Source: a virus
DNA: 24,857 bases
Reading direction: 5' to 3' (one strand)
Virus record (IMG/VR): IMGVR_UViG_3300036845_000498
Location: 1 to 24,857 of that record
The translations under genes and the position numbers were made by a program. Position 1 is the first letter of the stretch; every line of letters begins with the position of its first letter. The notes under the pieces were generated by a model. The model had not been told where the DNA came from. It made no database searches and saw only the letters and a list, made by a program, of their open reading frames with translations. Below are positions 3,550 to 17,467 of the stretch, piece by piece.

Positions 3550-3782
3550 AAATCGCTCTGGACAGCGGCGGAGCCTACCTGGAGCCCGACGAAGGCCCGC
3601 GCGACACGCGCTTCCACAAGCGCATCGTGCGCGTCGAGCGAATCGCGAACACGCGCACCGGCCACAACGTGACGCTCGAATGCGGCCACGGCGTGCAGAC
3701 CTTTGGCGACCTTGCGCACGCCGAGGGCGTCGTGCTCTGCACCCAGTGCCGCGACCAGGAGGAACATGCCGAAAAACTCTGA
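3546..3782 (+). CDS. small CGH/CxxC protein, 78 aa
   Basis: The C-terminal half has LECGHGVQTF followed by LCTQC, a CGH plus CxxC arrangement typical of tiny zinc-knuckle phage proteins. The gene at 4465-4671 has the same arrangement (SCGHEVVF, GCAQC), so the genome carries two proteins of this type about 0.9 kb apart. Function is unknown. It starts by ATGA overlap, and its end overlaps the RHH gene. Confidence 0.6.
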   Translation: MKIALDSGGAYLEPDEGPRDTRFHKRIVRVERIANTRTGHNVTLECGHGVQTFGDLAHAEGVVLCTQCRDQEEHAEKL

Positions 3783-4671: not shown

Positions 4672-5575
4672 TCTCCGCGCGCCGTTGGCCCGCCTCAAGA
4701 AGCCGTTCTTTGTGCCGCCCGACAAGGAAGCCGCCTGGGCGTCCATCGCCAAGCACACGCACAACCTCCTCATGTCACCGGATCTCCCGGTGCTGTTGAT
4801 CGACAATGTGGCCGAATTCTTTTTCACCAGCGAGCAGGAATACTGGGATCTCAGGGACGACTTTCCGAATTTAGCACCGCCTTATCCGGCTTTCTGGTGC
4901 GAGTGCCGGATGGTCAAGAAGATCCACAGCAAGGAATGCGGCGATAACGACCTGGGCGCTCTGGTGCCGAATGGCCGCCTGGGCATGCTGATTCACGGCC
5001 TCGACCCCGCGCTCTGCAACGGCGAAGGTATACCCGCCAACGCGCGCTGGATTTTGTGGTGCGAGCTATTCGTCGATTATGGCAGGCGCGGTGTCACCGC
5101 CGATGGCCCTCACGGCTCGACGTTCCTGTGCATCGACGCCGAGGGCGTGATCATCGACCGGCCTTGGATGCAGTCGCTCGCCGCCGACCGGGACGCGGAG
5201 ATGATGCGGTCGTACATGACGTTCTTCAACCCGGCGTTTTTGGCGATGTCGTTTCTCCATTGCAAGAACGTCACCATCGTCGACAACGAGGTGCCCGCAG
5301 CGCTCGCCAAGCGCTACCGCGAGCGCCACGGCATCGCACCGTGCCGGTACAAGACGCTGATCATCGAGCCGCTCAAGAAAGTCCTGCGGCACGAGGGCAA
5401 GAGCGATAGCGTCGGCTTGCAGCGCGCTCTCCACATTTGCCGTGGGCACTTCAAGGATTACCGCGAAGGGCGCGGGCTGTTTGGGCGCTACCATCAACTG
5501 GTGTGGCAACCCAGCATCGTGCGCGGCACCAAGGGCAAGAGCGCGCCGCCGCGCGAGATCGAGGTGAAGGTATGA
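4652..5575 (+). CDS. conserved hypothetical phage protein, 307 aa
   Basis: This is the largest early gene. Near the C terminus it has SFLHCKNV (residues 200-207) and ALHICRGHFKDY followed by GLFGRYH (259-281). I recall this as the signature of a phage family of unknown function in which a His-Cys-Arg-Gly-His core precedes a Phe-Gly-rich end. The Cys/His spacing could hold a metal. ATG 4652 has GGAGAG upstream; the frame extends to 4613 only within the previous gene. It ends in an ATGA overlap at 5572. Confidence 0.6.
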   Translation: MPRLIDDLRAPLARLKKPFFVPPDKEAAWASIAKHTHNLLMSPDLPVLLIDNVAEFFFTSEQEYWDLRDDFPNLAPPYPAFWCECRMVKKIHSKECGDNDLGALVPNGRLGMLIHGLDPALCNGEGIPANARWILWCELFVDYGRRGVTADGPHGSTFLCIDAEGVIIDRPWMQSLAADRDAEMMRSYMTFFNPAFLAMSFLHCKNVTIVDNEVPAALAKRYRERHGIAPCRYKTLIIEPLKKVLRHEGKSDSVGLQRALHICRGHFKDYREGRGLFGRYHQLVWQPSIVRGTKGKSAPPREIEVKV

Positions 5576-6779: not shown

Positions 6780-6796
6780 GGTTTCACCCCAAGAGG

Positions 6797-6825
6797 TTGA
6801 CGTAAAACAACATGCGGTTTAACAT
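6797..6825 (+). promoter_or_regulatory. promoter with palindrome in the spacer (site 1)
   Basis: The -35 is TTGACG (6797-6802), the spacer is exactly 17 bases, and the -10 is TAACAT (6820-6825). The spacer holds AAACAACATGCGGTTT (6805-6820), a match to AAACnnCATGnnGTTT that occurs in the same register at four other promoters here. The predicted start of transcription, about seven bases after the -10, falls on the ATG at 6833, so the mRNA should be leaderless. Confidence 0.75.
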
Positions 6826-6832
6826 AGGAAGC

Positions 6833-7057
6833 ATGAATATCACCCAGAAAGAAACGCAAGTCTTGGAGTACGTCAAACGATACAGCATGGTCGCAACCGG
6901 CCTCGGTAGCCGCGAGCCTTTCCCGTCTTTCAATTCCATCCTGGAAGCGCTGAAGCAGAAGGAGCTTGTCCACCGCGAAGATCTCACCGCCATCAACGGC
7001 ACCTATTCCACCTGGACCCTGAGCGACAAAGGCCGCCGTCTGCTGGAGGCGCGCTAA
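6833..7057 (+). CDS. small winged-helix-like protein, 74 aa
   Basis: The sequence starts with a helical region (QKETQVLEYVKRY) and ends with STWTLSDKGRRLLEAR, which looks like the wing and last helix of a winged-helix DNA-binding domain. The call is tentative because the first helices are weak. I prefer ATG 6833 to ATG 6812 because 6812 lies inside the promoter spacer, while 6833 is where a transcript from TAACAT would begin. It makes a TAATG overlap with the next gene. It could be a regulator of the operator regulon, which is inference. Confidence 0.6.
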   Translation: MNITQKETQVLEYVKRYSMVATGLGSREPFPSFNSILEALKQKELVHREDLTAINGTYSTWTLSDKGRRLLEAR

Positions 7058-7320
7058 TGACGACCGGAGTCCTGGTCAGAATCACCGGCGCGCGAAACTT
7101 CACCGGGCGCGTGCTGATCGCAACTGACATCGCTATGATCGTGGCTGTCGGCGAAGATCGCACCGTGACGCTGCGGCGCGATCCCGCGAGCACCAAGCCG
7201 GATCAATGGCGGTTCGGGGGCCTGCCCGTCGGCGTGCGGCCCGTGGCGCAACCGTCAGGCGACTTCGCGAATCGGCTGGCCGCTCTCGAACAACGCACAC
7301 GGAGGGACGAGGAGGCGTGA
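7057..7320 (+). CDS. hypothetical protein, 87 aa
   Basis: The start overlaps the previous stop (TAATG). The first 45 residues look like a small beta-barrel (TGVLVRITGARNFTGRVLI, then IVAVGEDRTVTLRR), and the C terminus is basic and helical. No family is recognised. Its stop overlaps a GTG at 7317. Confidence 0.5.
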   Translation: MTTGVLVRITGARNFTGRVLIATDIAMIVAVGEDRTVTLRRDPASTKPDQWRFGGLPVGVRPVAQPSGDFANRLAALEQRTRRDEEA

Positions 7321-7898
7321 ACGCCCGGGAGCTTTTCGAGCAGCTCGCGCCGCTGGTTGCGCCTGCCCTGGAGCAGGCCTTCGACCGGCGCGATCTCTGC
7401 ATCCTGGCCGCGCGCGTGGCCATCGAGACGGCGGCGTACTTCGGCATCGAGGCCACGCCGGTCGCCGTCAAGGTGATGGCGTACAACGATTCCTTCGCCC
7501 GCCACCTCGCCGACAAGGACGTGGACTTCCAGCAGCCATGCTCGACGTGGGGCGACGATTCCTGGGCCGTCGGCATCGGCTGCGGCAAACCGCCTGACTG
7601 CAACCGGTGGGATGGCCATCTCATCGCCGTGGCCGACGGGTGCTTCGGCGACTTCTCCATCCAGCAGGCCGAACGCCTGGAGCGCAACATCCACACCGGC
7701 CCGGCGCTGGTGGGCCCGTACACCGGCCAGATGAAGTGGAAGGCAATCGAGGGGAATAGCGGCACGGTGGTCGAGTACTCGCGCATCGCCGATGACTTCT
7801 GGCGCAGTGCGCCTGATTGGAGGGACGCCAAGCGCCGCCGCCCCATCGTGGCCGCGCTGATCCGCACCGTGCGCGCAATGGAGCTGACTGCGCGATGA
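7317..7898 (+). CDS. possible papain-like or transglutaminase-like protein, 193 aa
   Basis: GTG 7317 overlaps the previous TGA and has GGAGG upstream. The pattern CILAARVAIETAAYFGI (Cys28 at the start of a helix), then AVKVMAYND, then WDGHLIAVADG (His101) and GDFS (Asp112) follows the Cys, His, Asp order of papain-like and transglutaminase-like folds. I recall a similar phage and actinobacterial family with C(I)..RVAIE and WDGHL. Whether it is catalytic is not shown; Cys28 sits before the hydrophobic helix as expected for a nucleophile. The C-terminal part is basic. Confidence 0.55.
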   Translation: MNARELFEQLAPLVAPALEQAFDRRDLCILAARVAIETAAYFGIEATPVAVKVMAYNDSFARHLADKDVDFQQPCSTWGDDSWAVGIGCGKPPDCNRWDGHLIAVADGCFGDFSIQQAERLERNIHTGPALVGPYTGQMKWKAIEGNSGTVVEYSRIADDFWRSAPDWRDAKRRRPIVAALIRTVRAMELTAR

Positions 7899-8152
7899 AC
7901 TGCGTATGGTGCGAGGAGCCGGTGCTCGCCGGTGAGCAGGATCCGGCTTTCCATGCGCAGGCGATGCACGTTGAGTGCGGCTTCCGCAGTATGGTCGGCA
8001 GCGTGGGTCACCTGCTGCGCCGCTGCCACTGCTTCAAGTTGAATTCGCACCTCGGCGATCCGCCCGGCTTGAAGAAGCGTGATGCCGCATGCGCCGCTCT
8101 GTCGCTATTCCGGCAGATGGTGGCGTGGTACGGCGAAGGCTTCGATGCGTGA
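7895..8152 (+). CDS. conserved small phage zinc protein, 85 aa
   Basis: It opens with NCVWCEEPV, has MHVECGFRSMVGSVGHLL in the middle and then RCHCFKLN, ending with PPGLKKRDAACAALSLFRQ. This CxxC, H..CxFR..xGS..H, CxC order is a recognisable short phage family whose function is unknown. Several Cys and His residues suggest a zinc site. It starts by ATGA overlap at 7895. Confidence 0.65.
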   Translation: MNCVWCEEPVLAGEQDPAFHAQAMHVECGFRSMVGSVGHLLRRCHCFKLNSHLGDPPGLKKRDAACAALSLFRQMVAWYGEGFDA

Positions 8153-8267
8153 GTGGGAAAGCCGCGCCTGTAACGGGTTTTTGACGCGCAAGCCCTTGCG
8201 CGGGCCCGCATCATGGGCGTACCATGCGTGTGGGCCGTGTCGGGACGGCCTTCGTCCCAAGCAATAG
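8145..8267 (+). CDS. possible 40-aa Cys-containing protein
   Basis: The ATG at 8145 overlaps the end of the preceding gene (stop at 8150-8152) and opens a 40-codon frame with Cys at residue 9 and ACGPCRD near the end. Overlap and cysteines resemble the other small genes in this run. Length and lack of a ribosome site keep it doubtful. Its end meets the promoter of the Pro-rich gene. Confidence 0.35.
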   Translation: MREWESRACNGFLTRKPLRGPASWAYHACGPCRDGLRPKQ

Positions 8268-8304
8268 CATCCCACTGACTTTTGCGCGTACGTCCTGTGC
8301 GCGC
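8265..8304 (+). promoter_or_regulatory. late-type promoter and 5' hairpin of the Pro-rich gene
   Basis: A -10-like TAGCAT (8265-8270) is followed by CCC and, 13 bases later, a hairpin with arms 8284-8291 and 8297-8304 (eight pairs, one of them G-U) and the loop GTCCT. The block CCAAGCAATAGCATCCC plus this hairpin is repeated before the major capsid gene (22640-22691). No convincing -35 is seen, so an activator or another sigma factor may be used. Confidence 0.55.
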
Positions 8305-8343
8305 GTTGCAAAACCCAATCGTCAAACACAAGGAGTAAAACGC

Positions 8344-9039
8344 ATGCTGCCGCCGCAAGCTTATTACATTACGCCCGTTTCAGACCAACCGCCCGGTGCG
8401 CCGGATCACGGTCTTCCAGGCCAACCGCCAACTGTCAATCCAGGTCCCGGTTCGCCAACGCATCCGATTGCGCCCGGTGGTGGACCGAGTCAGGGTCCAG
8501 GATTTCCAACGCATCCGATTGCACCCGGTGGTCCTCCGCCGACAGTAGGCGGCGGGCCCATCACACCTCCGCCGACAGTCGGCGGCGGGCCCATCGTACC
8601 GGACCTGCCGCCCGGTCATCCCGTCCAGCCGTTGCCGCCGGGCCACGCGCCCGTCGTGCCTCCTGGCAGCGGTGTCGGTAAGCCCCCCGGAGTGCCGATC
8701 ATTGGCGCGCCGCCAGACGCCAAACCGCCCATGACGCCTCCGCAACCTCCCGGGACATGGGTCAATTTGGACGGCGGAAAAGGCGAGCCGCCCGCATGGG
8801 GCTACGTCCCGCAGGGTGCGCCGGTCCTGCCGGATCACGGGCTACCGGGTGGCCCGCCGGTAGCAATGCCAGCCGGTGGTGCTCCGCCCGCACCCGGTCC
8901 ATCGGCAACGGGGCATTGGGTGGCCATTGGATCAGCAGCACCGCCGTCTCAACCCGACCCGAAGGGTTCGAACCCGGTGTGGGCCTGGGTGCCGCACATT
9001 GACGCGACTTACGGCACCAAGGTCGCGCAACCCAAATAG
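8344..9039 (+). CDS. Pro/Gly-rich protein with C-terminal Trp modules, 231 aa
   Basis: ATG 8344 has AAGGAG eight bases upstream; the frame opens earlier but would cross the promoter hairpin. Residues about 15-150 are Pro/Gly-rich and repetitive (PDHGLPGQPPTV, HPIAPGGGP twice, PPTVGGGPI twice). Two modules follow, each with GxWV early and WGYVP or WAWVP at the end. The low-complexity part should be extended. Similar proteins occur in environmental phages and their role is not known to me. A virion or decoration role is suggested by the promoter it shares with the capsid gene, which is inference. Confidence 0.7.
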   Translation: MLPPQAYYITPVSDQPPGAPDHGLPGQPPTVNPGPGSPTHPIAPGGGPSQGPGFPTHPIAPGGPPPTVGGGPITPPPTVGGGPIVPDLPPGHPVQPLPPGHAPVVPPGSGVGKPPGVPIIGAPPDAKPPMTPPQPPGTWVNLDGGKGEPPAWGYVPQGAPVLPDHGLPGGPPVAMPAGGAPPAPGPSATGHWVAIGSAAPPSQPDPKGSNPVWAWVPHIDATYGTKVAQPK

Positions 9040-9118
9040 ACCCACGAACGAATCGTGATGGCTCAGAATTCCACAGATCGCCGCCACCAACGAGCTTCGC
9101 CCTCGGACGCGCGGCGTA

Positions 9119-9192
9119 CCCGCTCCATTCCCTTTTGCCGCTTACGCGGAGCGGGGCAACCGGGGCAGCTCACCTCCCGAAGGGGGCTGCCC
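9119..9192 (+). other. structured non-coding segment
   Basis: Two hairpins stand side by side between genes. The first pairs CCCGCTCC (9119-9126) with GGAGCGGG (9148-9155). The second pairs GGGCAGC (9163-9169) with GCTGCCC (9186-9192) and has an inner CCC-GAA-GGG tip. No U-run follows, so it is not a standard terminator. A leader structure or small RNA is possible. The rest of 9040-9118 shows nothing. Confidence 0.4.
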
Positions 9193-9211
9193 TGCCTAAC
9201 GTGAGGTCAAT

Positions 9212-9349
9212 ATGATTACTGCGCACGTTCTGCTGATGATCCTGGCGATCATCTGCCTGTTCCTGGCCGCCATCGGCGTGCAATCGCCACGCGGCAACCT
9301 CCTGGCCGCCGGGCTGTGCCTGTGGGCTGTGGCCGTGACCATTGGCTGA
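9212..9349 (+). CDS. 45-aa membrane protein with two segments
   Basis: ATG 9212 follows GTGAGG and opens a 45-codon frame ending TGA 9347-9349. The protein is two hydrophobic helices (VLLMILAIICLFLAAIGV and LLAAGLCLWAVAVTIG) joined by a short QSPRGN turn. I recall such tiny two-helix proteins with this central turn in many phages. The function is unknown. Confidence 0.6.
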   Translation: MITAHVLLMILAIICLFLAAIGVQSPRGNLLAAGLCLWAVAVTIG

Positions 9350-9355
9350 ACGCCT

Positions 9356-9526
9356 GTGACCCATAACAGCCAATGTCCGTTCTGCTCGATGCGACTCTTC
9401 ACGACCGCATGCCCGCGATGCGGTGCCGTCTGCCAGGGCAGCCAGTGGTCCCAGCCGGGCTCGGTGCCGCCATCACCGCTGCGATCCGCCGGTGCCCATA
9501 GCGGGCTCCAGATGCTCAAGCAATGA
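9356..9526 (+). CDS. 56-aa zinc-ribbon protein, GTG start
   Basis: From GTG 9356 the frame reads through QCPFCSMRLF and ACPRCGAVC, a tight CxxC-x8-CxxC zinc ribbon, and ends at TGA 9524-9526, overlapping the next ATG by four bases. The overlap and the ribbon together make it convincing in spite of the GTG start and the weak ribosome site. The C-terminal half is Ser/Pro-rich. Function is unknown. Confidence 0.6.
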   Translation: MTHNSQCPFCSMRLFTTACPRCGAVCQGSQWSQPGSVPPSPLRSAGAHSGLQMLKQ

Positions 9527-9753
9527 CCAACCACGAGTGGACCTTCACCGCGAGTGGCCCGACTCTCACCGTCGAGACCTGTGAGAAATGCGGTCTCGTG
9601 CGCATCATAACCATGAACGGCGAGCACTTCTTCACGCGAATCGACCGGCAACATGCCCAGTGCCCATCGCCGTACCGCAAGCAAGCGCCGGGCACCCTCC
9701 CTGAAAACCCTAATTCAGTTTCGGATTTTCCGAATCCAAAAAAGTGCCCGTAA
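9523..9753 (+). CDS. small CxxC protein, paralogue of the gene at 733
   Basis: Residues 1-53 match the protein at 733-921 (VETCEKCG, MNGEHFFTR, CPSPYRK). After the shared end CPSPYR, this copy runs on for about 24 residues (PGTLPENPNSVSDFPNPKKCP) that are encoded by the start of the roughly 230-bp repeat at 9686. The repeat has therefore replaced or extended the original 3' end. It starts by ATGA overlap. Confidence 0.65.
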   Translation: MTNHEWTFTASGPTLTVETCEKCGLVRIITMNGEHFFTRIDRQHAQCPSPYRKQAPGTLPENPNSVSDFPNPKKCP

Positions 9754-9912
9754 TTTTTCTACGTGTCGGGAAAATCTTCTACCCCAGGTTGAGATCGGCA
9801 CCTGAAAACGGGGCGGTTTTTTCACCGTCGTCCGGTGTACACCTCGCCAAAGTGTTGGTCCTTTGTTTTCACGGAGATAGAGTTTATCCCCAATCCCGCA
9901 AAAACACGTCAT
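9686..9912. repeat. 230-bp dispersed repeat, copy 1
   Basis: This block recurs at 10964-11210 with long identical stretches. It contains CGGGCAC (9689-9695) pairing with GTGCCCG (9744-9750), an inner TTCGGA-TTT-TCCGAA (9720-9734), a 10-bp palindrome GGTGTACACC (9834-9843), and the end ACACGTCAT. The first 65 bases lie inside the preceding gene; the rest is non-coding. Differences between the copies fall on all bases, and copy 2 has extra sequence (a GCAGAGC-GCAA-GCTCTGC hairpin). Confidence 0.75.
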
Positions 9913-9917
9913 AAAAC

Positions 9918-10028
9918 GGCGACCACGGGCTCACCGGCGACCACGGGCTCACCACGGCGACCACGGGCTCACCACGGCGCTACCGGCGACCACGGGCTCA
10001 CCACGGCGACCACGGGCTCACCACGGGC
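9918..10028. repeat. tandem array 1, 18-bp units
   Basis: Five exact copies of GGCGACCACGGGCTCACC start at 9918, 9936, 9956, 9985 and 10005, separated by 0 or 2 bases (AC), with one shortened unit at 9976-9984. There are no unique spacers, so it is not a CRISPR. The array begins right after repeat copy 1 and ends just before the terminator of the minus-strand operon. Confidence 0.85.
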
Positions 10029-10035
10029 CTTAAAA

Positions 10036-10067
10036 TGAAAAAGCCCCACGCACCTAGCGTGAGGCTT
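10036..10067 (-). terminator. terminator of the minus-strand two-gene operon
   Basis: On the minus strand, arms 10067-10057 and 10051-10041 form an 11-bp stem (one mismatch), closed by a five-base loop and followed by a short T-run. It lies about 30 bases beyond the stop of the gene at 10099, as expected for intrinsic termination. Confidence 0.75.
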
Positions 10068-10098
10068 CAGTAGATTCGGGATTGTTGGACGCCGGGCG

Positions 10099-10455
10099 TC
10101 ACGATTCCTTTCTCACTTGCTGAAACGCGCGGCATAGGTCTTGGAAGATGGCCTGCAGTTGGTCGTCTTCGGGGTTGTCGCGCTCGAGCAAATCCGCCGG
10201 AGAGGCCGCCGGTGGATTCAGCGGGGCGTGCTCCGCCCGCAGCATGCGTAGCGTGTGGGCTGGATAGGTGATGGCCGGATCGTAGGCATCGGTGATGGCG
10301 GAATCGGGCGACCATATGGCGGCGACCACGCCGTCGTGGCTACCCAGTCCGTCGCCCTCAAATACTTCGAGCACGGGCACGCCATAGCTACTCATTGCGG
10401 AGTCCGTAGTCAGACGCCCCCGCAGGCCGCCTTCGATGGTTACCTTGATGTTCAT
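10099..10455 (-). CDS. hypothetical protein, 118 aa (second gene of minus operon)
   Basis: The start at 10455 (minus strand) has a strong ribosome site, TAAGGAG, nine bases upstream. The protein starts with a beta-rich segment (NIKVTIEGGLRGRL), has an acidic centre and ends in a helix (QLQAIFQDLCRAFQQVRKES). I do not recognise it. It follows the gene at 10477 by 21 bases and is ended by the terminator at 10036, so the two form an operon. Unlike its neighbours it points against the phage. Confidence 0.6.
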   Translation of the reverse strand: MNIKVTIEGGLRGRLTTDSAMSSYGVPVLEVFEGDGLGSHDGVVAAIWSPDSAITDAYDPAITYPAHTLRMLRAEHAPLNPPAASPADLLERDNPEDDQLQAIFQDLCRAFQQVRKES

Positions 10456-10476
10456 CGTCTTTTTCTCCTTACTGAC

Positions 10477-10872
10477 CTAGAGCCTCACACCAGCACAGAC
10501 GTGCGAGTAGATCTCGCTCACTGTGTGTCCGTCCGCTTCGTCTGCTTCGCGGCCATAGACGGCGCGGAACATTTTGCGCGCTTCTTCTTCCGTCATGCTG
10601 TCATCGTCAGGGCCGTAGCGCACGGTCCAATAGACTGAGGCAGCGGCGCGAGTAGTGATCTCATTTTTGGCGAGGGCTTCGGCATCCTCCAGCGTGCCAT
10701 CGATCCACGAGGGGACCAGATCCGGGGAGTTGCCGTCCGCTGCATCGGCGTGAAGCTCTACAGTTTTGGCGAGCACTTTATCAATCAATTTGATTCGCGC
10801 GGCAAAGCCCCCAAAATCGCGCTGACTGAGTCCGAATGCCGCGTCCGTAATTTGCTGTCTGTTCGTTTTCAT
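10477..10872 (-). CDS. hypothetical protein, 131 aa (first gene of minus operon)
   Basis: The start at 10872 has AAAGGAAA upstream on the minus strand. The protein is helical and acidic, with TEEEARKMFRAVYG near the end. No known family is seen. The promoter upstream (10954 to 10921) carries the same palindrome as the + strand accessory promoters, so this opposed operon belongs to the same regulon. Confidence 0.6.
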   Translation of the reverse strand: MKTNRQQITDAAFGLSQRDFGGFAARIKLIDKVLAKTVELHADAADGNSPDLVPSWIDGTLEDAEALAKNEITTRAAASVYWTVRYGPDDDSMTEEEARKMFRAVYGREADEADGHTVSEIYSHVCAGVRL

Positions 10873-10920
10873 GGTTGGTTTCCTTTTTCGTTTTTACTCT
10901 CGATTTACATCTGCTCTAAA

Positions 10921-10954
10921 ACTATAACACAAACCGCATGCAGTTTCGCGGCAA
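10921..10954 (-). promoter_or_regulatory. minus-strand promoter with palindrome (site 5)
   Basis: On the minus strand TTGCCG (10954-10949) is followed by AAACTGCATGCGGTTT (10946-10931), in the same register as at the other sites. The -10 is either TGTGTT at the 17-base spacing or the better TATAGT (10926-10921) with a TG extension. Transcription would enter the gene at 10872 after a leader of about 40 bases. Confidence 0.6.
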
Positions 10955-10963
10955 CGCGCCGCT

Positions 10964-11210
10964 TACCGGGCACCCTCCCGTAAAACCCAAATTCACTTTC
11001 GGATTTTCCGAATCCCAAAAAGTGCCCGTAATTCTCTACGCCTTGCAGAGCGCAAGCTCTGCGCTTAATACCAACCACCTGAAAACGAAGTGGTTTTTTC
11101 ACCGTCGTCCGGTGTACACCTCGCCAAAGTGTTTGTCCTTTGTTTTCATATGGATAGAGCTTCACTCCAATCCCACAAAAACCCGCAAAAACCTCAATAC
11201 ACACGTCATA
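10964..11210. repeat. 230-bp dispersed repeat, copy 2
   Basis: This is the second copy of the block at 9686. CGGGCAC (10967-10973) pairs with GTGCCCG (11022-11028); the inner TTCGGA-TTT-TCCGAA and the palindrome GGTGTACACC (11111-11120) are kept. It also holds a hairpin GCAGAGC-GCAA-GCTCTGC near 11045-11062 and AACCAC/GTGGTT followed by a T-run near 11078-11100 on the + strand, which could end transcription. No convincing gene is seen on either strand. Confidence 0.75.
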
Positions 11211-11238
11211 GGTGGTATCCCAAAACTTCCAAAAACGC

Positions 11239-11473
11239 CAGCACGCCAGCACGGACGCCAGCACGGACGCCAGCACGCCAGCACGGACGCCACGGACGCC
11301 AGCACGGACGCCAGCACGGACGCCAGCACGCCAGCACGGACGCCACGGACGCCAGCACGGACGCCACGGACGCCAGCACGGACGCCAGCACGGACGCCAG
11401 CACGCCAGCACGGACGCCACGGACGCCAGCACGGACGCCAGCACGCCAGCACGGACGCCACGGACGCCAGCAC
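11239..11473. repeat. compound tandem array 2 (8-, 12- and 9-bp words)
   Basis: The whole 235 bp parses without error into three words, A = CAGCACGC, B = CAGCACGGACGC and C = CACGGACGC, in the order ABB ABCBB ABCBCBB ABCB ABC plus a final CAGCAC. The mixed word lengths change frame repeatedly, so it is not a coding repeat, although its composition leaves all frames open. It starts shortly after repeat copy 2 and abuts the terminator of the GP88-like gene. Confidence 0.9.
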
Positions 11474-11503
11474 AAAAGGCGCTACCACGTGGTAGCGCCT
11501 TGA
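11474..11503 (-). terminator. terminator of the GP88-like gene
   Basis: A perfect palindrome occupies 11476-11501 (arms AAGGCGCTACCAC and its complement) and is followed on the minus strand by TT, extending the T-run. It lies 27 bases past the stop of the minus-strand gene at 11530. Confidence 0.75.
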
Positions 11504-11529
11504 TTCCATCCAAACGCCTAAAGCGCGAT

Positions 11530-12258
11530 CTAGTGCAATGGGTACGTGATCGCGGTTCCTTTCTCCCAGCACATGCGACAGTCTCCGCAATGGCCATCAC
11601 GTGTGTACGCTTCACAAGCGATCACATCGGCGTTAGTCGAATTGACGCCACTACCAGCACCTAACCCTGGAATCCGTGGGGTATCATCGCCGACAGCAAG
11701 TGCTGACGGTTTTACCGTGACGTTCTCCAATGCGTGAAGCTTCTGCAGCAAGTGCAGGATCGGATTGAACACGGGCAATAGCGGATTGAAGTCGCGTCCA
11801 GTTTGATAGCTACGTGTGGGAAACCAGAAGCGAACGTCTGGTAACTGGGAACAGATCTCAATCCAGCATTGGACATATACCGCGTTAAAGAAGTCGCCAC
11901 TATCGTGGCCACGAAAGAACACGTCACCTGTATCGCGGATTGCTTCCACCACTAGCGCCACGAATTGCGCTCTACCTTCTGGCGTCTTCATGCAATCACG
12001 GACCCATTGAAATCGAATTCCTTGATAGGCGTACGCCAGCTTGAACCGTTTGTACTTCTTTGCATAACACTTCTTACAGATCGCATCTTTGCGTGTGAAG
12101 TCGGCGAACGGGCACGATTCACCCGCTGTCATGGAGAATGAATGGCAAGGCATCTTGCTGGTATGCGTCAAGATTGGCGCATAGTAATCCTTATCGTGGT
12201 AATGCACGGGTGAGACGTCTGGTATCAGGTGAGTAACTTTCTTTTTTGCTGGCGTCAT
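11530..12258 (-). CDS. GP88-family-like Cys-cluster protein, 242 aa
   Basis: Cysteines at 38, 49, 61 and 64 (MPCHS, SCPFAD, ICKKCYAKK) open the protein, a middle block FFRGHDSGDFFNAVYVQCW leads to FWFPTRSY, and CEAYTRDGHCGDCRMCW (Cys215, 224, 227, 230) closes it. This order fits the phage GP88 family (mycobacteriophage gene product 88) and the related DUF5131 proteins, thought to bind metal or an iron-sulfur cluster; the activity is unknown. The gene is clearly AT-richer than its neighbours, points against the phage and has its own terminator and promoter, so it looks like a late arrival. Confidence 0.7.
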   Translation of the reverse strand: MTPAKKKVTHLIPDVSPVHYHDKDYYAPILTHTSKMPCHSFSMTAGESCPFADFTRKDAICKKCYAKKYKRFKLAYAYQGIRFQWVRDCMKTPEGRAQFVALVVEAIRDTGDVFFRGHDSGDFFNAVYVQCWIEICSQLPDVRFWFPTRSYQTGRDFNPLLPVFNPILHLLQKLHALENVTVKPSALAVGDDTPRIPGLGAGSGVNSTNADVIACEAYTRDGHCGDCRMCWEKGTAITYPLH

Positions 12259-12290
12259 AAGTCGCTATCATCGCGACTTACTTGTGTCAG
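12258..12290 (-). promoter_or_regulatory. inverted repeat and possible promoter of the GP88-like gene
   Basis: Arms TAAGTCGC (12258-12265) and GCGACTTA (12273-12280) form a perfect 8-bp inverted repeat that reaches into the start codon. On the minus strand CTGACA (12290-12285) lies 17 bases from TAGCGA, which falls in the repeat. Another TAAGTCGC lies at 12318. This suggests an operator covering the start of transcription. There is no ribosome site, so the mRNA may be leaderless. Confidence 0.45.
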
Positions 12291-12639
12291 TGGTTAGTGG
12301 TAGGCGAGTGAGTGGGAGTAAGTCGCCACCGTGGCACTAACTGAGCTAAACCCAATGGAATCTAGGCGAGGCGGAGTTATACACTTTGGGTCCTACGTAT
12401 AGTGGGAAGGCCGCGCGCCGGTGTCCGCAGTGCCCAACGCGCGCGATTCCCAAACACCTACTTAGAGCTGAATATCAGCTTTGCCCTGTAAGTCGTTGAT
12501 ACCATGGCGGATAAACAGCATGCGGAATACTGGCAGATGCTCGAAGACGTTAGGGCGCTGCGGCCCGCACGTAGCGTACTGCGATCCAGCCAAGGATTCT
12601 GCCGCCGGTTTACGCGCCCTATTCGTACAACGCCGAAGC
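12281..12639. other. intergenic stretch with inverted repeats, no gene called
   Basis: I see no supported gene here. GTTAGTG near 12293 pairs with CACTAAC near 12331. A larger imperfect hairpin pairs TGGGAA and a GCGCGC run (12403-12418) with GCGCGCG and TTCCCA (12438-12452). AGCTGA-ATA-TCAGCT lies at 12466-12480. AAACAGCATGCGGAAT at 12513-12528 is a degraded match to the shared operator without a good promoter around it. Confidence 0.4.
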
Positions 12640-12669
12640 GTGACAGCCCTGCTGGCGCGGTGGTAGAGT
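12640..12669 (+). promoter_or_regulatory. promoter of the packaging operon, leaderless type
   Basis: GTGACA (12640-12645), an 18-base spacer and TAGAGT (12664-12669) are followed by six bases and the ATG at 12676. The spacing puts the transcript start on the ATG, as at the operator promoters, but no palindrome is present. Confidence 0.5.
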
Positions 12670-12675
12670 GATCGC

Positions 12676-12987
12676 ATGCTCCGCGTTGTGAAAGCGCCCG
12701 ATACCGGCGATGCCGCGTTCTTCCTGCTGTGCGACCACCGGTGCTGCATGGAAGCGCGGCGCGGCAGCGCCCTGATCACCAATGCCGACGACTATCAGAT
12801 GCTCAAGAAGAAGTTCCTCAAGACCGCGATGGAAGAAGGCTGGTGGATCGACCTGGAAGGTGTCTACTGCCCGGCGCATGCGCGGGAGATGCTGCAGTTC
12901 GCGCGCGAGGCCAAGGAAAAGGGTCAGCAGGTCGTGGCGGCGGCGCGGCCCCAGGATGTCCTGGCCTTCGGCAAGGGGCGTGCATGA
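12676..12987 (+). CDS. conserved phage protein upstream of the terminase, 103 aa
   Basis: Cysteines in LLCDHRCCMEARRG (residues 18-31) and EGVYCPAHARE (about 61-71) suggest a CxxxCC plus CxxH metal site; the rest is helical. It is the first gene of the packaging operon, ends in an ATGA overlap with the small terminase and starts at the ATG expected for the leaderless transcript. The function is unknown; its position suggests a link with packaging. Confidence 0.6.
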   Translation: MLRVVKAPDTGDAAFFLLCDHRCCMEARRGSALITNADDYQMLKKKFLKTAMEEGWWIDLEGVYCPAHAREMLQFAREAKEKGQQVVAAARPQDVLAFGKGRA

Positions 12988-13541
12988 AGAAGCCGTCACC
13001 GCCGCCGACCAAGCAGCGCGTGGTTCACGTGGGCGTGGCCGCCCTGGCGCGAGAGACTGGCTATTCGAATACCACCGTGAGCCAGAAGCTGACTGAGGGC
13101 AAGACGCCAGACCAGATCCGGCGGGACGCGGCCAAGCGCGGCAAGATGGTCCTGCCAAGGAGCCAGGGGCCCGGCAGAGCGCCCGCAAGCAAGAGCGAAT
13201 ATGATCTGGTCGCCGAGAGCCGGGCGCGTGGAGACGCCATCGACGACGCCAAGCTGCGCCGTGCCCAGGCGCTCGCCGAGCACCAGGAGTTGGAGAACAT
13301 GCTGCGGCGCGGCGAGTTGATGCCGGTGAGCTATGTGCGGCTGTGGGCCACGCGCTTTCTGATCGATGGGCGCGATGAGCTGCTGAAGGCCCCCTCCGAG
13401 CTGGCCGACGGTCTTGCCGCTGAGAGCAGTCCGCTGAAGACGGCGGAGATCCTGCGCGGCTGGGTGGAGCGCGCCATGGCCAAATTCGAGCAGCTCGACC
13501 AGCTCTGGAAGGGCGAGTTCGAGAAACAGCGGGTGGCGTGA
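12984..13541 (+). CDS. terminase small subunit (Nu1-like)
   Basis: The N terminus has a helix-turn-helix (VAALARETGYSNTTVSQKL, residues about 17-35) fitting DNA recognition at the packaging site. Then comes a helical segment (KLRRAQALAEHQELENMLRRGELMP, quoted here as KLRRAQALAEHQELE and MLRRGELMP) as in lambda Nu1-type proteins, and a C-terminal helix that would contact the large subunit. It starts by ATGA overlap at 12984; the frame is open earlier only in the preceding gene. Its place, three genes before the large terminase, agrees. Confidence 0.75.
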   Translation: MKKPSPPPTKQRVVHVGVAALARETGYSNTTVSQKLTEGKTPDQIRRDAAKRGKMVLPRSQGPGRAPASKSEYDLVAESRARGDAIDDAKLRRAQALAEHQELENMLRRGELMPVSYVRLWATRFLIDGRDELLKAPSELADGLAAESSPLKTAEILRGWVERAMAKFEQLDQLWKGEFEKQRVA

Positions 13542-13729
13542 TGGCTGATGCACGATTCACAAAGATGTCACTCGCGGACGACCCGTTTGGCGGTGCACAT
13601 GGCCTCGCATGGTACGAACGGAAGCCTGCCAGCCTGACGCCTGCGGAATGGGCCGCGCTCGACGCCGCTGTCGGGGCGGGGCGGATCCACAGTTGGGAAT
13701 ACTTCGACTGGAAGGCGAACGTGCGGTGA
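13541..13729 (+). CDS. hypothetical protein, 62 aa
   Basis: A small acidic protein with several aromatic residues (GLAWYERKPASLTPAEW, SWEYFDWKANVR). ATG 13541 overlaps the previous TGA (TGATG); a GTG at 13538 is an alternative. It lies in the packaging operon between the two terminase genes. No family is recognised. Confidence 0.5.
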   Translation: MADARFTKMSLADDPFGGAHGLAWYERKPASLTPAEWAALDAAVGAGRIHSWEYFDWKANVR

Positions 13730-13845
13730 TGGACGCGATGCAAAGCTATGCTCTCGCCCATCCGTTGGCCAGGGCTAAGGGCGACCCGCAAGGTTTCCGC
13801 AGATTCCGTTGGCCGTGGTCAATCATTCTGACGGTCAATAAGTGA
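13729..13845 (+). CDS. possible 38-aa protein
   Basis: The ATG at 13729 overlaps the previous TGA and opens 38 codons to TGA 13843-13845. The product is basic with an aromatic end (RRFRWPWSIILTVNK). The overlap fits the operon style, but the short length leaves it uncertain. It ends seven bases before the next GTG. Confidence 0.4.
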   Translation: MDAMQSYALAHPLARAKGDPQGFRRFRWPWSIILTVNK

Positions 13846-13851
13846 CTGACG

Positions 13852-14142
13852 GTGAATTCCGGGCGGCCAGTTTGGCACGCCTCCATCGCACGACTCCCGG
13901 GTACTGCACCGATCCCGATCACACGGTGGGGCGATGGCACGATGCGGGAAGCCAAGCGACAGTTGGGGCAGGTGCTGGACGGTGTAGGTCAGGGACCGCC
14001 CGTGTTTGCGACTACCAAAAGCGCGCTGCACATGCGGCGGTCGCTCGCTCAGGCGGAAATGGAGTCGCTCGACCCCGCGTGGCTGGCGATTCCGGCGCGC
14101 GATGAATTCAGCCAGGACGGCGAGGTCGCGATGGAATTATGA
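13852..14142 (+). CDS. conserved packaging-operon protein, 96 aa, GTG start
   Basis: The protein begins GRPVWHASIARLP, contains REAKRQLGQVLDGVGQG and ALHMRRSLAQAEMESLDPAW, and ends IPARDEFSQDG. I recall this order from short phage proteins coded next to terminases. The role is unknown. GTG 13852 is chosen because no ATG is available; the overlapping frame from 13842 has unnatural composition. It ends in an ATGA overlap with the large terminase. Confidence 0.6.
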   Translation: MNSGRPVWHASIARLPGTAPIPITRWGDGTMREAKRQLGQVLDGVGQGPPVFATTKSALHMRRSLAQAEMESLDPAWLAIPARDEFSQDGEVAMEL

Positions 14143-16199
14143 GCGCCGCCCCGAGTCAGATGGTCCCCGGCTTTCCCTGGCCGCCGGTGTTTGAGGAGCT
14201 GCGCGAGATTTTCCGGCTGCGCCCCAAGGTCCCGCTGGCGGAGTGGGCCGAAGCCAACATCCTGCTGTCGCCCGAGTATTCCAACTCCACGGGTCCGCTG
14301 ATGTTATTTGGCTGGCAGCGCGCCATCTTCGACGCCATCACCGATCCCACCATCGAGACGGTGGTGATCATGTCGTCGACGCAGGTGGTGAAGTCGCTGG
14401 CGCTGATGTGCGCCATCGCCTACTGGATTGTGGAGGACCCTGGACCGATCCTGCTGGTCGAGCCGAAGAAGGACGCCGCCAGGGATTTCTCGAAGCGCCG
14501 TCTGATGCCGCTGGCGCGCGACTGCGCCGCTCTGCACGACCGCATCTCAGACAGCGTCCACGACGGGCGCAACACGATCCAGTCGAAGGATTTCCCCGGC
14601 GGCAACCTGCTGATCGTCAGCGCGCGCACGCCGGTCGATCTGGCGCAGCATACCATCCGCTATCTGGTGTGCGACGAGATCGACAAGTACGATGAGGACG
14701 TCGGCGGCAGCGTCGAGCGCCAGGGCGAAGGCGATCCTATCGATCTGGCCTGGGAGCGCGCCATGACCTTCGGGTCCCGCCGCAAGCGCGTGCTCGCCTG
14801 CTCGCCGACGGTGGCCGGGCAATCGCGCATCGGCAAGGCCTGGGCGCTCTCCGATCAGCGGCGGCCATGGGTGCCGTGCCCGTACTGCGGCGCGATGCAG
14901 GTGCTGCGCTTCCGCGACCGCTCAGGTTACCACGTGAAGTGGGACAGTTCAGTGGCGCGCGAGCTGCAGCCGCCCACGGCGCGCTACCACTGCATCCAGT
15001 GCGACAAGCCCTGGACGGAGCAGGAGCGTTGGACGGCCTGCAACCACCATGTCGAGTGGCGGGCGGAAAAACCGTCGGCGGCGGATCGCAAGGTCGCCGG
15101 ATTCTGGGTGAACCACATGTATGTGCCGCCCGCGTGGAAGACGGCGGCGAGCATCACGCGGCATTTTCTCGAAGCCAAGGATGACCGGCAGTCGCTGAAG
15201 ACGTTCATCAACACGGTGCTCGCTGAGGAGTGGGTGGAGGAAGGCGAAGCGCCGGAGAAGGAAGTGCTGTACGCGCGCCGCGAGGCGTACCCGTTCGGCG
15301 AGACGGCAGTGGTGCCGCAGCGCGGCCTGTTCCTGACGGCGGCCTGCGACGTCCAGGAGAATCCGCCGCGCCTGGAGGTTGAAGTCAAGGCCTGGGGCCG
15401 GGGCCGCGAGAACTGGTCGATGGGCTACTGGATCCTGCAGGCCTTCCACGAGAACGGCCAGGAGTTGCCGGTGAGCGCGCACGAACTGTGGGACAGGCTG
15501 GACGAGCTGCTCTACCGCGACTGGCAACACGAATCCGGCCACTTCATGCCGATTCTCGCCATCTGCGTCGACACCGGCAAGAATCCGAAGCCGGTTTACG
15601 AATTCGCCAGACGGCCTGGGCACCGTCAGCTTCATTACGGCGCGCAAGGCATCAAACTGGAGGCGCAGCACACGGTCGTGCCGATCAAGGGCAACTCCGA
15701 CAACCTGCGCATCATCTCCGGCATCTCGAAGGAGGACGCCGCGCGCAAGCGCCAGGGCGTGCGCATCATCAGCATCGGCACCAACTGCGCCAAGGCCGAG
15801 ATCTTCGACCTGCTGCGCCATGCCATGCCGACGCCCGACGACAGTCCGTCGCCCGGCTGCTATCACTTCCCGCTGTATGACATGGTTTACTTCGAAGGCC
15901 TGACTGCCGAAGTGAAGATCATCGAGCCGAACGGCGACGTGACCTATAAGAAGCGCGGGCGCAACGAACCGGTGGATCTGGCCGTCTACAATCGCGGCGC
16001 GGCGGCCATCGTGGGCATCGACCGCATGCGCGAGGAGCACTGGCAGCGCATGGAACAGGCTGTCGCCCCCATCGGCGGCGGCACCGCACCGCAGCGTACG
16101 CCTCCGCCATCGGCACCGGTGGCCCCACCGGCACCGGCAGCGCCCACCATTCAGCCCGCCGGGTTCCGGCCTCCGCGCTCTGGCTTCCGGCGGTGGTGA
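14139..16199 (+). CDS. terminase large subunit (lambda gpA family)
   Basis: This motor and nuclease protein packages DNA into proheads. In 686 residues it shows the gpA-type order: an adenine-motif region (LFGWQRAIFDAI, 56-67), a Walker A-like loop SSTQVVKS (79-86), Walker B YLVCDEID (175-182), a coupling motif near ACSPT (220-224), and a four-Cys knuckle (Cys247, 250, 285, 288; PCPYCGAM and CIQCDKPW). The nuclease part follows with Asp-rich motifs (ACDVQEN, CVDTGKN). The last 50 residues are Pro/Ala-rich and low in complexity. It is full length for the family and ends the packaging operon. Confidence 0.93.
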   Translation: MSAAPSQMVPGFPWPPVFEELREIFRLRPKVPLAEWAEANILLSPEYSNSTGPLMLFGWQRAIFDAITDPTIETVVIMSSTQVVKSLALMCAIAYWIVEDPGPILLVEPKKDAARDFSKRRLMPLARDCAALHDRISDSVHDGRNTIQSKDFPGGNLLIVSARTPVDLAQHTIRYLVCDEIDKYDEDVGGSVERQGEGDPIDLAWERAMTFGSRRKRVLACSPTVAGQSRIGKAWALSDQRRPWVPCPYCGAMQVLRFRDRSGYHVKWDSSVARELQPPTARYHCIQCDKPWTEQERWTACNHHVEWRAEKPSAADRKVAGFWVNHMYVPPAWKTAASITRHFLEAKDDRQSLKTFINTVLAEEWVEEGEAPEKEVLYARREAYPFGETAVVPQRGLFLTAACDVQENPPRLEVEVKAWGRGRENWSMGYWILQAFHENGQELPVSAHELWDRLDELLYRDWQHESGHFMPILAICVDTGKNPKPVYEFARRPGHRQLHYGAQGIKLEAQHTVVPIKGNSDNLRIISGISKEDAARKRQGVRIISIGTNCAKAEIFDLLRHAMPTPDDSPSPGCYHFPLYDMVYFEGLTAEVKIIEPNGDVTYKKRGRNEPVDLAVYNRGAAAIVGIDRMREEHWQRMEQAVAPIGGGTAPQRTPPPSAPVAPPAPAAPTIQPAGFRPPRSGFRRW

Positions 16200-16255
16200 C
16201 GGATATGCGATACTGTTGCCTGATGGTTTAGGTTTCTGGACAGAATTTCCTTTTT

Positions 16256-16281
16256 AGCGGCCCGCAAGGGCCGCTTTTTTA
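16256..16281 (+). terminator. terminator after the large terminase
   Basis: The stem AGCGGCCC paired with GGGCCGCT and the tetraloop GCAA are followed by six or more T. It lies 57 bases past the terminase stop and should end the packaging transcript. Confidence 0.85.
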
Positions 16282-16328
16282 TTGCCGCGAATGGCGGTAG
16301 GCTCGAATCAAGTCCTTCTCTATTTGAG

Positions 16329-16365
16329 GCCCGGCGCAGGTTCTTCTTTTTGCCGGGCTTTTTTT
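16329..16365 (+). terminator. second terminator after the terminase
   Basis: GCCCGGC (16329-16335) pairs with GCCGGGC (16352-16358) over a 16-base loop and is followed by seven T. It stands between the first terminator and the promoter at 16376, so it insulates the next unit. Confidence 0.7.
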
Positions 16366-16375
16366 GCGGCTCCAC

Positions 16376-16404
16376 TTGACATGAAACGACATGTTGTTTA
16401 AGAT
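16376..16404 (+). promoter_or_regulatory. promoter with palindrome in the spacer (site 2)
   Basis: TTGACA (16376-16381), a 17-base spacer and TAAGAT (16399-16404). The spacer holds AAACGACATGTTGTTT (16384-16399). The ATG of the next gene is eight bases after the -10, so the mRNA should have no leader or a leader of one base. Confidence 0.8.
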
Positions 16405-16411
16405 CTGAAGT

Positions 16412-16726
16412 ATGACCTGTCAATTCTGCAACGTCACGCACAAGACCACGGTGCCGACCGTCCACCTGAATGGCACACCGGCCAAGAGCCTGTTCGACGG
16501 CCTCCAGGCAACGCTCGAAGCACTGCATGAAGCCCAGCGGCGCATGGCCGAGGCCGGGCCGAACGGGCGCGATTACTACCCGCAGGGGCCGCAGGCCATG
16601 ACCGCCGTCATGGAGCAGCACGAGCAGCGCCACCTGGATCTCAACCGCATGATGCGGGAGCTGGAAGAGATGCGCGATCACGTTCAGGCCGTCCTGGACT
16701 TCCAGGAAACCAACCGGAGGAGGTGA
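16412..16726 (+). CDS. conserved small phage protein, 104 aa
   Basis: The N terminus has TCQFCNVT followed by VHLNGTPAKSL, then a long helical region with PNGRDYYPQGPQAMTAV, HEQRHLDLNRMMRELEEM and a basic end. The NGT..L, then ARDYY.QG, then QH..R pattern is a short phage family that I recognise; it is likely a helical bundle with an N-terminal CxxC. The function is unknown. The start at 16412 is fixed by the leaderless promoter. Confidence 0.65.
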   Translation: MTCQFCNVTHKTTVPTVHLNGTPAKSLFDGLQATLEALHEAQRRMAEAGPNGRDYYPQGPQAMTAVMEQHEQRHLDLNRMMRELEEMRDHVQAVLDFQETNRRR

Positions 16727-16729
16727 GCC

Positions 16730-16957
16730 ATGGACGCATCCGAACGCAACGAGATCGCGCTCGACATGATTCAGCGCCCGGCATTCTGGTGACGGGCCAA
16801 ATTGTTCCGCAGTCTGCGGAGCGCGCAGTTGGATGGGACGCTCGCGATGGTACTTGGCGAGATCGAAGGCCTCACCGACGAAGCCGTGGCCGCCATTAAT
16901 ACCCACCTGGAAACCTACTGGCCGGAGACGAAGGAAGATTTCACCCCTTCCTCTTGA
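16730..16957 (+). pseudogene. small gene interrupted by an in-frame TGA
   Basis: An excellent ribosome site (GGAGGAGGTG) precedes ATG 16730, but the frame meets TGA at 16790-16792 after 20 codons (ending RPAFW). The same frame then continues open for 54 codons (RAKLFRSLRSAQLDG to YWPETKEDF) to TGA 16955-16957. Reading CGA for the stop would give an intact 75-residue protein, so a C-to-T nonsense change is the simplest account. Readthrough is the alternative. TGA is plainly used as stop elsewhere here. The final stop overlaps the -35 of the next promoter. Confidence 0.55.
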
Positions 16958-16982
16958 CACGAAACAGCATGCAGTTTATGAT
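16954..16982 (+). promoter_or_regulatory. promoter with palindrome in the spacer (site 3)
   Basis: TTGACA (16954-16959), a 17-base spacer and TATGAT (16977-16982). The spacer holds AAACAGCATGCAGTTT (16962-16977), a near-perfect palindrome. The next ATG (16989) is seven bases after the -10, the expected point of transcript start. Confidence 0.8.
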
Positions 16983-16988
16983 AAAAAC

Positions 16989-17216
16989 ATGAGCAACGCA
17001 ATTACGATCACCAAGCTGGCCGCCGCGATTGAAATGCGCAAGGCGAAGGCACAAAGCACCATCGACGCCCTGTGCGGCACGGTCCATCCGCAGGAGTTGG
17101 AGATCCTCAACAACTGCCGTGGCGAAGTCGAGGCGTTCAATGAAGTCTTGGACGCCATCCGCTACCGCACTACTTACAACTTGGAGCGCTGGGGCGGCCA
17201 ACCCGCCCCCCGCTGA
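16989..17216 (+). CDS. hypothetical helical protein, 75 aa
   Basis: The protein is mostly helix (ITKLAAAIEMRKAKAQSTI, EVEAFNEVLDAIRYRT) and may form a coiled coil. ATG 16989 is chosen over the longer frame because the promoter starts the transcript there. No family is recognised. It stands alone between two promoters of the same type. Confidence 0.55.
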   Translation: MSNAITITKLAAAIEMRKAKAQSTIDALCGTVHPQELEILNNCRGEVEAFNEVLDAIRYRTTYNLERWGGQPAPR

Positions 17217-17241
17217 CGCAAAACGACATGCTGTTAGGATA
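17213..17241 (+). promoter_or_regulatory. promoter with palindrome in the spacer (site 4)
   Basis: CTGACG (17213-17218) and AAACGACATGCTGTTA (17221-17236) are in the usual register. The -10 is weaker (TAGGAT 17235-17240 or AGGATA 17236-17241). Here a short leader of about ten bases with AAAGAGAG precedes the ATG at 17258, so this copy is not leaderless. Confidence 0.6.
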
Positions 17242-17257: not shown

Positions 17258-17467
17258 ATGAACTGCCCGCACTGTGAACACGAACTGACGCCGGAAGAGG
17301 TCAAGTCGCTCTGGGCCAGCTACACCGGCTCGCTGGCCACGCCGCACGCCGGTCCCGGCAGGCCGCGCTGGAAGAAGCGCTGCCGCTGCGGCGCGATGAC
17401 CCTGGCGCGCGCCAAGCAGCGCAACCACAAGTGCCCGCCGAAGGTGAAGGAAAAGGAGGCCGCCTGA
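17258..17467 (+). CDS. conserved phage zinc protein, 69 aa
   Basis: The order NCPHCEHELTPEEVKSLWA, then GPGRPRWKKRCRCGAMTLARAKQR and a final HKC is that of a common small phage family: CxxC, a helix with a Trp-Ala, a GRP basic turn and a CxCG knuckle. It looks like a treble-clef or ribbon that might bind nucleic acid; the function is unknown. A strong terminator follows. Confidence 0.7.
   Translation: MNCPHCEHELTPEEVKSLWASYTGSLATPHAGPGRPRWKKRCRCGAMTLARAKQRNHKCPPKVKEKEAA

Follow-up and report, generated by a model that had tools for sequence, protein, structure and literature searches.

In the C1 system of P1 and the CIR system of phiC31, one phage repressor serves many promoters through repeated operators. 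Cluster A stoperators and their repressor diverge jointly between related phages (PMC6550527); these sites are asymmetric and halt transcription elongation (PMC9283540). In cluster K mycobacteriophages, the start-associated sequence (SAS) is a 13-bp asymmetric repeat found at translation starts and the extended start-associated sequence (ESAS) consists of two 17-bp inverted repeats set 4-13 bp apart (PMC3203893, PMC12699233); the inverted-repeat consensus differs between related phages, with the gene association kept (PMC3203893). In bacteria, Zheng and colleagues called genes leaderless from a TANNNT located about 12 bp ahead of the start codon (PMC3160421). Here we analyzed the linear virus contig IMGVR_UViG_3300036845_000498, probably a fragment, over its whole length of 24,857 bases (hereafter the window), in which a palindrome recurs inside the promoters of small genes. 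The type of this operator-like palindrome is uniform within a phage and different between orthologous genes of different phages. We consider it likely that the palindromes serve as operators for a single dimeric regulator specific to the phage, most probably its own immunity-type repressor, which would occlude RNA polymerase at dispersed small genes.

Palindromes and promoters of the window

The motif AAACNNCATGNNGTTT, which covers the AAACnnCATGnnGTTT sites, was found four times exactly and once with a single mismatch in the 24.9-kb window. The sites, all located by motif search, and the promoters and upstream boxes around them are the following.

6805..6820, plus strand: putative operator AAACAACATGCGGTTT
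10931..10946, minus strand: putative operator AAACTGCATGCGGTTT, in the minus-strand reading
16384..16399, plus strand: putative operator AAACGACATGTTGTTT
16962..16977, plus strand: putative operator AAACAGCATGCAGTTT
17221..17236, plus strand: putative operator with one mismatch, AAACGACATGCTGTTA
6797..6825, plus strand: predicted promoter TTGACG-17-TAACAT, 7 nt ahead of the ATG at 6833, leaderless layout (sequence reading and promoter scan)
16376..16404, plus strand: predicted promoter TTGACA-17-TAAGAT, 7 nt ahead of the ATG at 16412, without the upstream box (promoter scan)
16954..16982, plus strand: predicted promoter TTGACA-17-TATGAT (11/12), 6 nt ahead of the ATG at 16989 (promoter scan)
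17213..17240, plus strand: weak predicted promoter with CTGACG (17213-17218), a spacer of 16 and TAGGAT (17235-17240) (sequence reading)
10921..10954, minus strand: predicted promoter region with TTGCCG at 10954-10949, a probable extended -10 TGTTATAGT and TATAGT at 10926-10921
6782..6790, plus strand: TTTCACCCC box, 6 bp upstream of the -35, conserved in the related contigs G004, G006, G012 and G015
16939..16947, plus strand: TTTCACCCC box, 6 bp upstream of the -35

A sequence-only reading had described five sites all matching one motif; four of them do so exactly, while the site at 17221 ends with GTTA instead of GTTT. When up to two mismatches were allowed, 6 matches were obtained against a mean of 0.43 and a maximum of 3 in 100 shuffles, and the pattern read backwards had no match in the whole record. 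The motif is thus real and beyond chance, since the number of sites far exceeds that of the shuffles. The two-mismatch match at 12513, just within the start of an open reading frame, looks like chance.

In the promoters at 6797, 16376 and 16954, the palindrome begins 2 bp past the -35 and ends on the first base of the -10. The earlier claim that the site fills a 17-base spacer in every promoter therefore holds for the sites at 6805, 16384 and 16962 and weakly, with a 16-bp spacer, for that at 17221, but not for the minus-strand site at 10946-10931. There, a 17-bp spacer would put TGTGTT (2/6) as the -10; the alternative is an extended -10, TG-T-TATAGT, with TATAGT 22 nt after TTGCCG, and the operator would probably lie just upstream of this extended -10, covering its -35 side. 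A plain promoter scan of positions 6 to 18.3 kb returned four promoter-like sites, the top three being those at 6797, 16376 and 16954, a yield that is not on its own above shuffles (mean 2.5).

At 6833, 16412 and 16989, the -10 ends 6-7 nt ahead of the ATG, and judging from this layout the transcript should start at or beside the start codon. The first base of the -10 lies 12-13 bp before the ATG. The genes at 17258 and 10872 (minus strand) have leaders. A Shine-Dalgarno-like AGGA stands ahead of 6833, and such a word precedes 8 of 35 cassette genes, a comparison with weak control value as the cassette genes were chosen by layout and the control starts were uncurated.

The genes and other features next to these promoters are listed below.

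6833..7057, plus strand: gene for a 74-aa predicted winged-helix protein (MarR/PadR-like fold by structure prediction; predicted local distance difference test score, pLDDT, 79.5)
10477..10872, minus strand: 131-aa gene with a leader, no assigned function, downstream of the minus-strand site
16256..16275, plus strand: terminator-like hairpin between the terminase and the next promoter (from a terminator scan that was overall not above its shuffles)
16412..16726, plus strand: HLNGT gene, 104 aa, no assigned function, with orthologs in many phages
16989..17216, plus strand: 75-aa gene, no assigned function
17258..17467, plus strand: 69-aa Cys-rich gene with a 17-nt leader and homologs in G001, G004-G007 and G012

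Two G+C-rich tandem arrays (9916-10028 and 11235-11473, with 20- and 12/41-bp units) flank the minus-strand genes, the second extending up to a GP88-like gene at 11530-12258.

Exchange of the palindrome among related phages

A scan of viral contigs for TTGACNNNAAACNNCATGNNGTTT gave six stretches, and three of the contigs concerned also belong to the set whose terminase is 70-86% identical to that of the window. Exact sites of the window's operator type, called type A, number four in G004, two in G005, three in G006 and one in G007; G001, G002 and G003, which are not part of the terminase set, also have them. The same -35/-10/ATG geometry is found at the type A sites of G001, G004 and G005 and at two of the three sites of G006; the G007 site has a poor -35.

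Two larger relatives, G012 (70.8 kb, terminase about 85% identical to the window's) and G015 (73.6 kb, about 75%), carry the cassette with other palindromes and have no type A site. G015 (type B) displays CAGATGCATGCATC in about 12 boxed promoters, the highest number of cassettes in a phage being 12. G012 (type D) shows the degenerate GCATG(C/T)(A/G)G(A/T)CG in six promoters, one of them ahead of a serine recombinase. The spacer contains CACATGCATGCATGTG in G008 (type C) and AATAGGCCTATT, without CATG, in G028 (type E); a CATG core is common to types A, B, C and D. The presence of serine recombinases in both G012 and G015 indicates that the relatives are temperate. No prophage was found among 84,980 bacterial and archaeal genomes in two scans that used the terminase and the capsid, and the best terminases among cultured phages are about 35% identical.

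The exchange is best seen at orthologous promoters. Ahead of the HLNGT gene, the operator is of type A in the window, G004 and G005, of type D in G012 and of type E in G028, and G011 has another spacer. Similarly, G006-690, with type A, has a homolog in G015-6780, with type B, which in turn matches G012-50163 (type D), and the small Cys-rich gene has type A at G004-5600 and G005-3818 and type C at its ortholog G008-7734. The identity of the operator flanks averaged 0.77 within phages and 0.43 between them, a value reached by none of 5000 label shuffles, with the sites aligned on their core by the analyst and cassette duplication within a genome uncorrected.

To count such promoters, we used the pattern T[TC]G[AC]CN - 16-18 - NANNNT - 5-7 - ATG and required 8 or more of the 12 consensus bases. 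Over 713 kb of related contigs, which are kin and hence yield non-independent events, 42 leaderless-type promoters were counted against 10 in dinucleotide shuffles, and 21 of them had a palindromic spacer against 0.1 (maximum 1) in 20 shuffles. The distance to the ATG is also the same in nearly all cassettes retrieved by the box and type A searches, neither of which required an ATG. Among HLNGT orthologs overall, the 67 distinct upstream regions include no more than a few with a leaderless promoter.

Other repeats were observed in this survey. A perfect 16-bp palindrome, TGTCCAAATTTGGACA, is present in 3-6 copies in L149 (4999, 5969, 6283 and 7020) and also in L153 and L157, just upstream of genes with a Shine-Dalgarno sequence in other HLNGT-bearing phages; it is possibly a different operator system. 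In L103 (5958-5986) and L104 (5641-5989), tandem GATGCnnGCATC palindromes 17 bp apart lie ahead of leaderless-type starts whose -35s are poor, and one of the copies occupies the expected -35 position.

The upstream box is itself recurrent, with 12 copies of TTTCACCCC in G015 against about 0.6 expected from a uniform-base estimate. Its distance to the -35 is 6-7 bp, once 8, while that to the centre of the CATG core ranges from 18 to 24 bp. The fixed spacing to the -35 suggests that the box contacts the polymerase or an activator beside it. The box is not essential, since G005 and the window promoter at 16376 are without it. G047 and G048, which were retrieved with nothing but the box pattern, have it with other spacers and partly with leaders; apart from these two, matches outside the family in wider box searches are mostly chance. 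In L209 (G048), two boxed cassettes at 5153-5275 stand back to back and drive divergent genes. An AraC-family gene found in G012, G015 and G021 was considered as the reader of the box and is unsupported, G047 having the box without an AraC-type match.

Regulator candidates and rival explanations

In the proposed mechanism, a dimeric repressor occupying the -35/-10 spacer of leaderless sigma-70 promoters would exclude RNA polymerase, so that the dispersed small accessory genes would be silent as long as the regulator is there and expressed early in infection or upon induction. The palindrome overlaps the polymerase site in this way, less exactly at 10946 on the minus strand, and several promoters per genome share one operator (four plus one in the window, about 12 in G015, six in G012 and four in G004). 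The promoter frame, that is, the TTTCACCCC box, the -35, the -10 and an ATG at the transcript start, would be an old shared module, in which regulator and operator sequence would have been replaced several times during phage divergence. A regulon under one dimeric repressor, as first proposed from the window, remains the best reading and gains strength from the relatives, which keep promoter and gene while exchanging the palindrome uniformly per phage; the regulators then named for it are not established.

We more tentatively consider a two-part promoter chassis, with TTTCACCCC fixed to the -35 and the leaderless start and with spacer operators exchanged together with repressor specificity, the whole dispersed regulon switching immunity type at once. 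The box would then be read by some activator or by the host polymerase. We regard this chassis as possible, though rather doubtful.

Of the two regulators proposed earlier, the product of the gene at 6833 adopts a MarR/PadR-type winged-helix fold in its predicted structure, with a best PDB match at E 0.004. As it is winged-helix-like and its gene lies under one of the promoters, it is possibly an autoregulated regulator, or just a regulated gene, but the other type A contigs, all of them fragments, yielded no homolog. The ribbon-helix-helix (RHH) gene at 3766 is disfavoured. Its product matches a phage repressor family weakly (E 0.0011), its single-sequence structure model is useless (pLDDT 44), and the other motif-bearing contigs compared gave no homolog. 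Moreover, a relative in G047 keeps a near-identical putative DNA-contact strand (KTQITVRV / KSQISVRI) despite a different palindrome.

Elsewhere in the group, the AraC-family gene of G012, G015 and G021 lies in opposite orientation to its neighbours, between the tail genes and a recombination operon, and adjoins an HTH_3 protein gene in G012; in the type A contigs, that region or the AraC-family gene itself is absent. A Pfam scan of 39 small G015 proteins gave no convincing regulator. Next to the AraC-family gene, TTTGGCACC direct repeats in 11-bp steps (L029:11210-11252 in G012 and L086:10991-11034 in G021) stop some 30 bp upstream of the TTGACA promoter that serves the recombination operon; they are possible phased activator sites. 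In G003 (L026, 11182), a type A operator is embedded in a longer inverted repeat, TTGTCATTAAACAACATGCTGTTTAATGTCAA; this region precedes the recombination operon and is the place of the AraC gene in related phages.

Several observations weigh against a phage-encoded repressor acting on the palindromes. No regulator gene whose distribution tracks the operator type was found in the contigs compared. The type A contigs are all fragments, with no complete type A phage among them. An exact type A site, at 1487 of G006, stands outside any recognisable promoter, and the poorly symmetric type D operators fit a simple dimer less well. The analyst-made alignment and the uncorrected duplications also temper the flank comparison.

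A rival explanation is a host regulator, such as a LexA-like stress repressor, whose regulon the small phage genes would have joined. The occurrence of type A operators outside the terminase family, in G001, G002 and G003, and the search for a phage regulator that gave none speak for it, and the palindromes of the relatives could reflect different hosts. However, relatives with 75-85% identical terminases differ in the palindrome at orthologous promoters, uniformly per phage, and G001 has a homologous Cys-rich gene, so that its site may derive from a transferred module. We therefore find a host-coded regulator, also raised in the sequence-only reading, unlikely. A phage-encoded, immunity-type repressor is preferred because the operator differs between close relatives, is uniform within a phage and is accompanied by serine recombinases in G012 and G015.

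Less likely still, the palindrome could be the site of a MerR-like or other spacer-bound activator that turns the promoters on. Imperfect -10 hexamers in type B and D promoters would suit such a protein, and the tandem GATGCnnGCATC copies with poor -35s in L103 and L104 could be activator sites there. Against this, the type A hexamers come close to the consensus (up to 11/12), the spacers measure 16-18 bp in the best parse (19 only in alternative parses) and not the 19-20 bp of MerR promoters, and the position of the operator within the spacer varies. Promoters with near-consensus hexamers and 17-18 bp spacers need no activator in the spacer. Occlusion fits better than activation from the operator because the operator slides while the distance from box to -35 stays, a freedom of position that would suit an activator badly. 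A role in replication, in packaging or as a methylation mark at CATG/GCATGC, rather than in transcription, seems very improbable: the CATG core common to types A-D is what a methylation-sensitive site might show, and the start-associated repeats of cluster K mycobacteriophages are of unproven function (PMC3203893), but almost every copy is enclosed by a -35 and a -10 and has an ATG at a fixed distance, and AATAGGCCTATT in the G028 spacer has no CATG.

Comparison with described systems

In immunity evolution, it is an open question how a phage can shift the specificity of its main repressor, given that a large number of scattered operators have to follow. In the phage group described here, orthologous promoters have different operators in an otherwise conserved promoter, so that reporters could put this question to the test. 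The group also unites leaderless genes in what looks like a single phage regulon, and its promoters bring in a box ahead of the -35. In the literature searched, we found no description of such a box, nor, in a search that was incomplete, of this promoter architecture.

The nearest precedent is SAS/ESAS of cluster K, likewise repeats at the starts of some small non-structural genes, in many copies per genome, with a consensus varying between relatives. The present elements differ from these in being a single palindrome of about 12-16 bp inside a leaderless promoter, with a box upstream. The SAS 13-mer GGGATAGGAGCCC is absent from the start regions of the cassettes read, and in place of the paired 17-bp inverted repeats of ESAS the cassettes have one spacer palindrome. 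Cluster A stoperators are also many dispersed repressor sites per genome that diverge between relatives, but they are asymmetric 13-bp sites mainly outside promoters, whereas the sites found here are palindromic and inside promoters. The spacers of 16-18 bp in the best parse set these promoters apart from the MerR type. The -10 at about 6-7 nt before the starts at 6833, 16412 and 16989 corresponds to the layout of leaderless bacterial genes, to which the phage cassettes add a full -35, a spacer operator, an upstream box and a set of small phage genes. Compared with the regulons of P1 C1 and phiC31, which serve as analogies, the distinguishing features are the sequences, the leaderless layout, the TTTCACCCC box and the exchange of operators at orthologous promoters.

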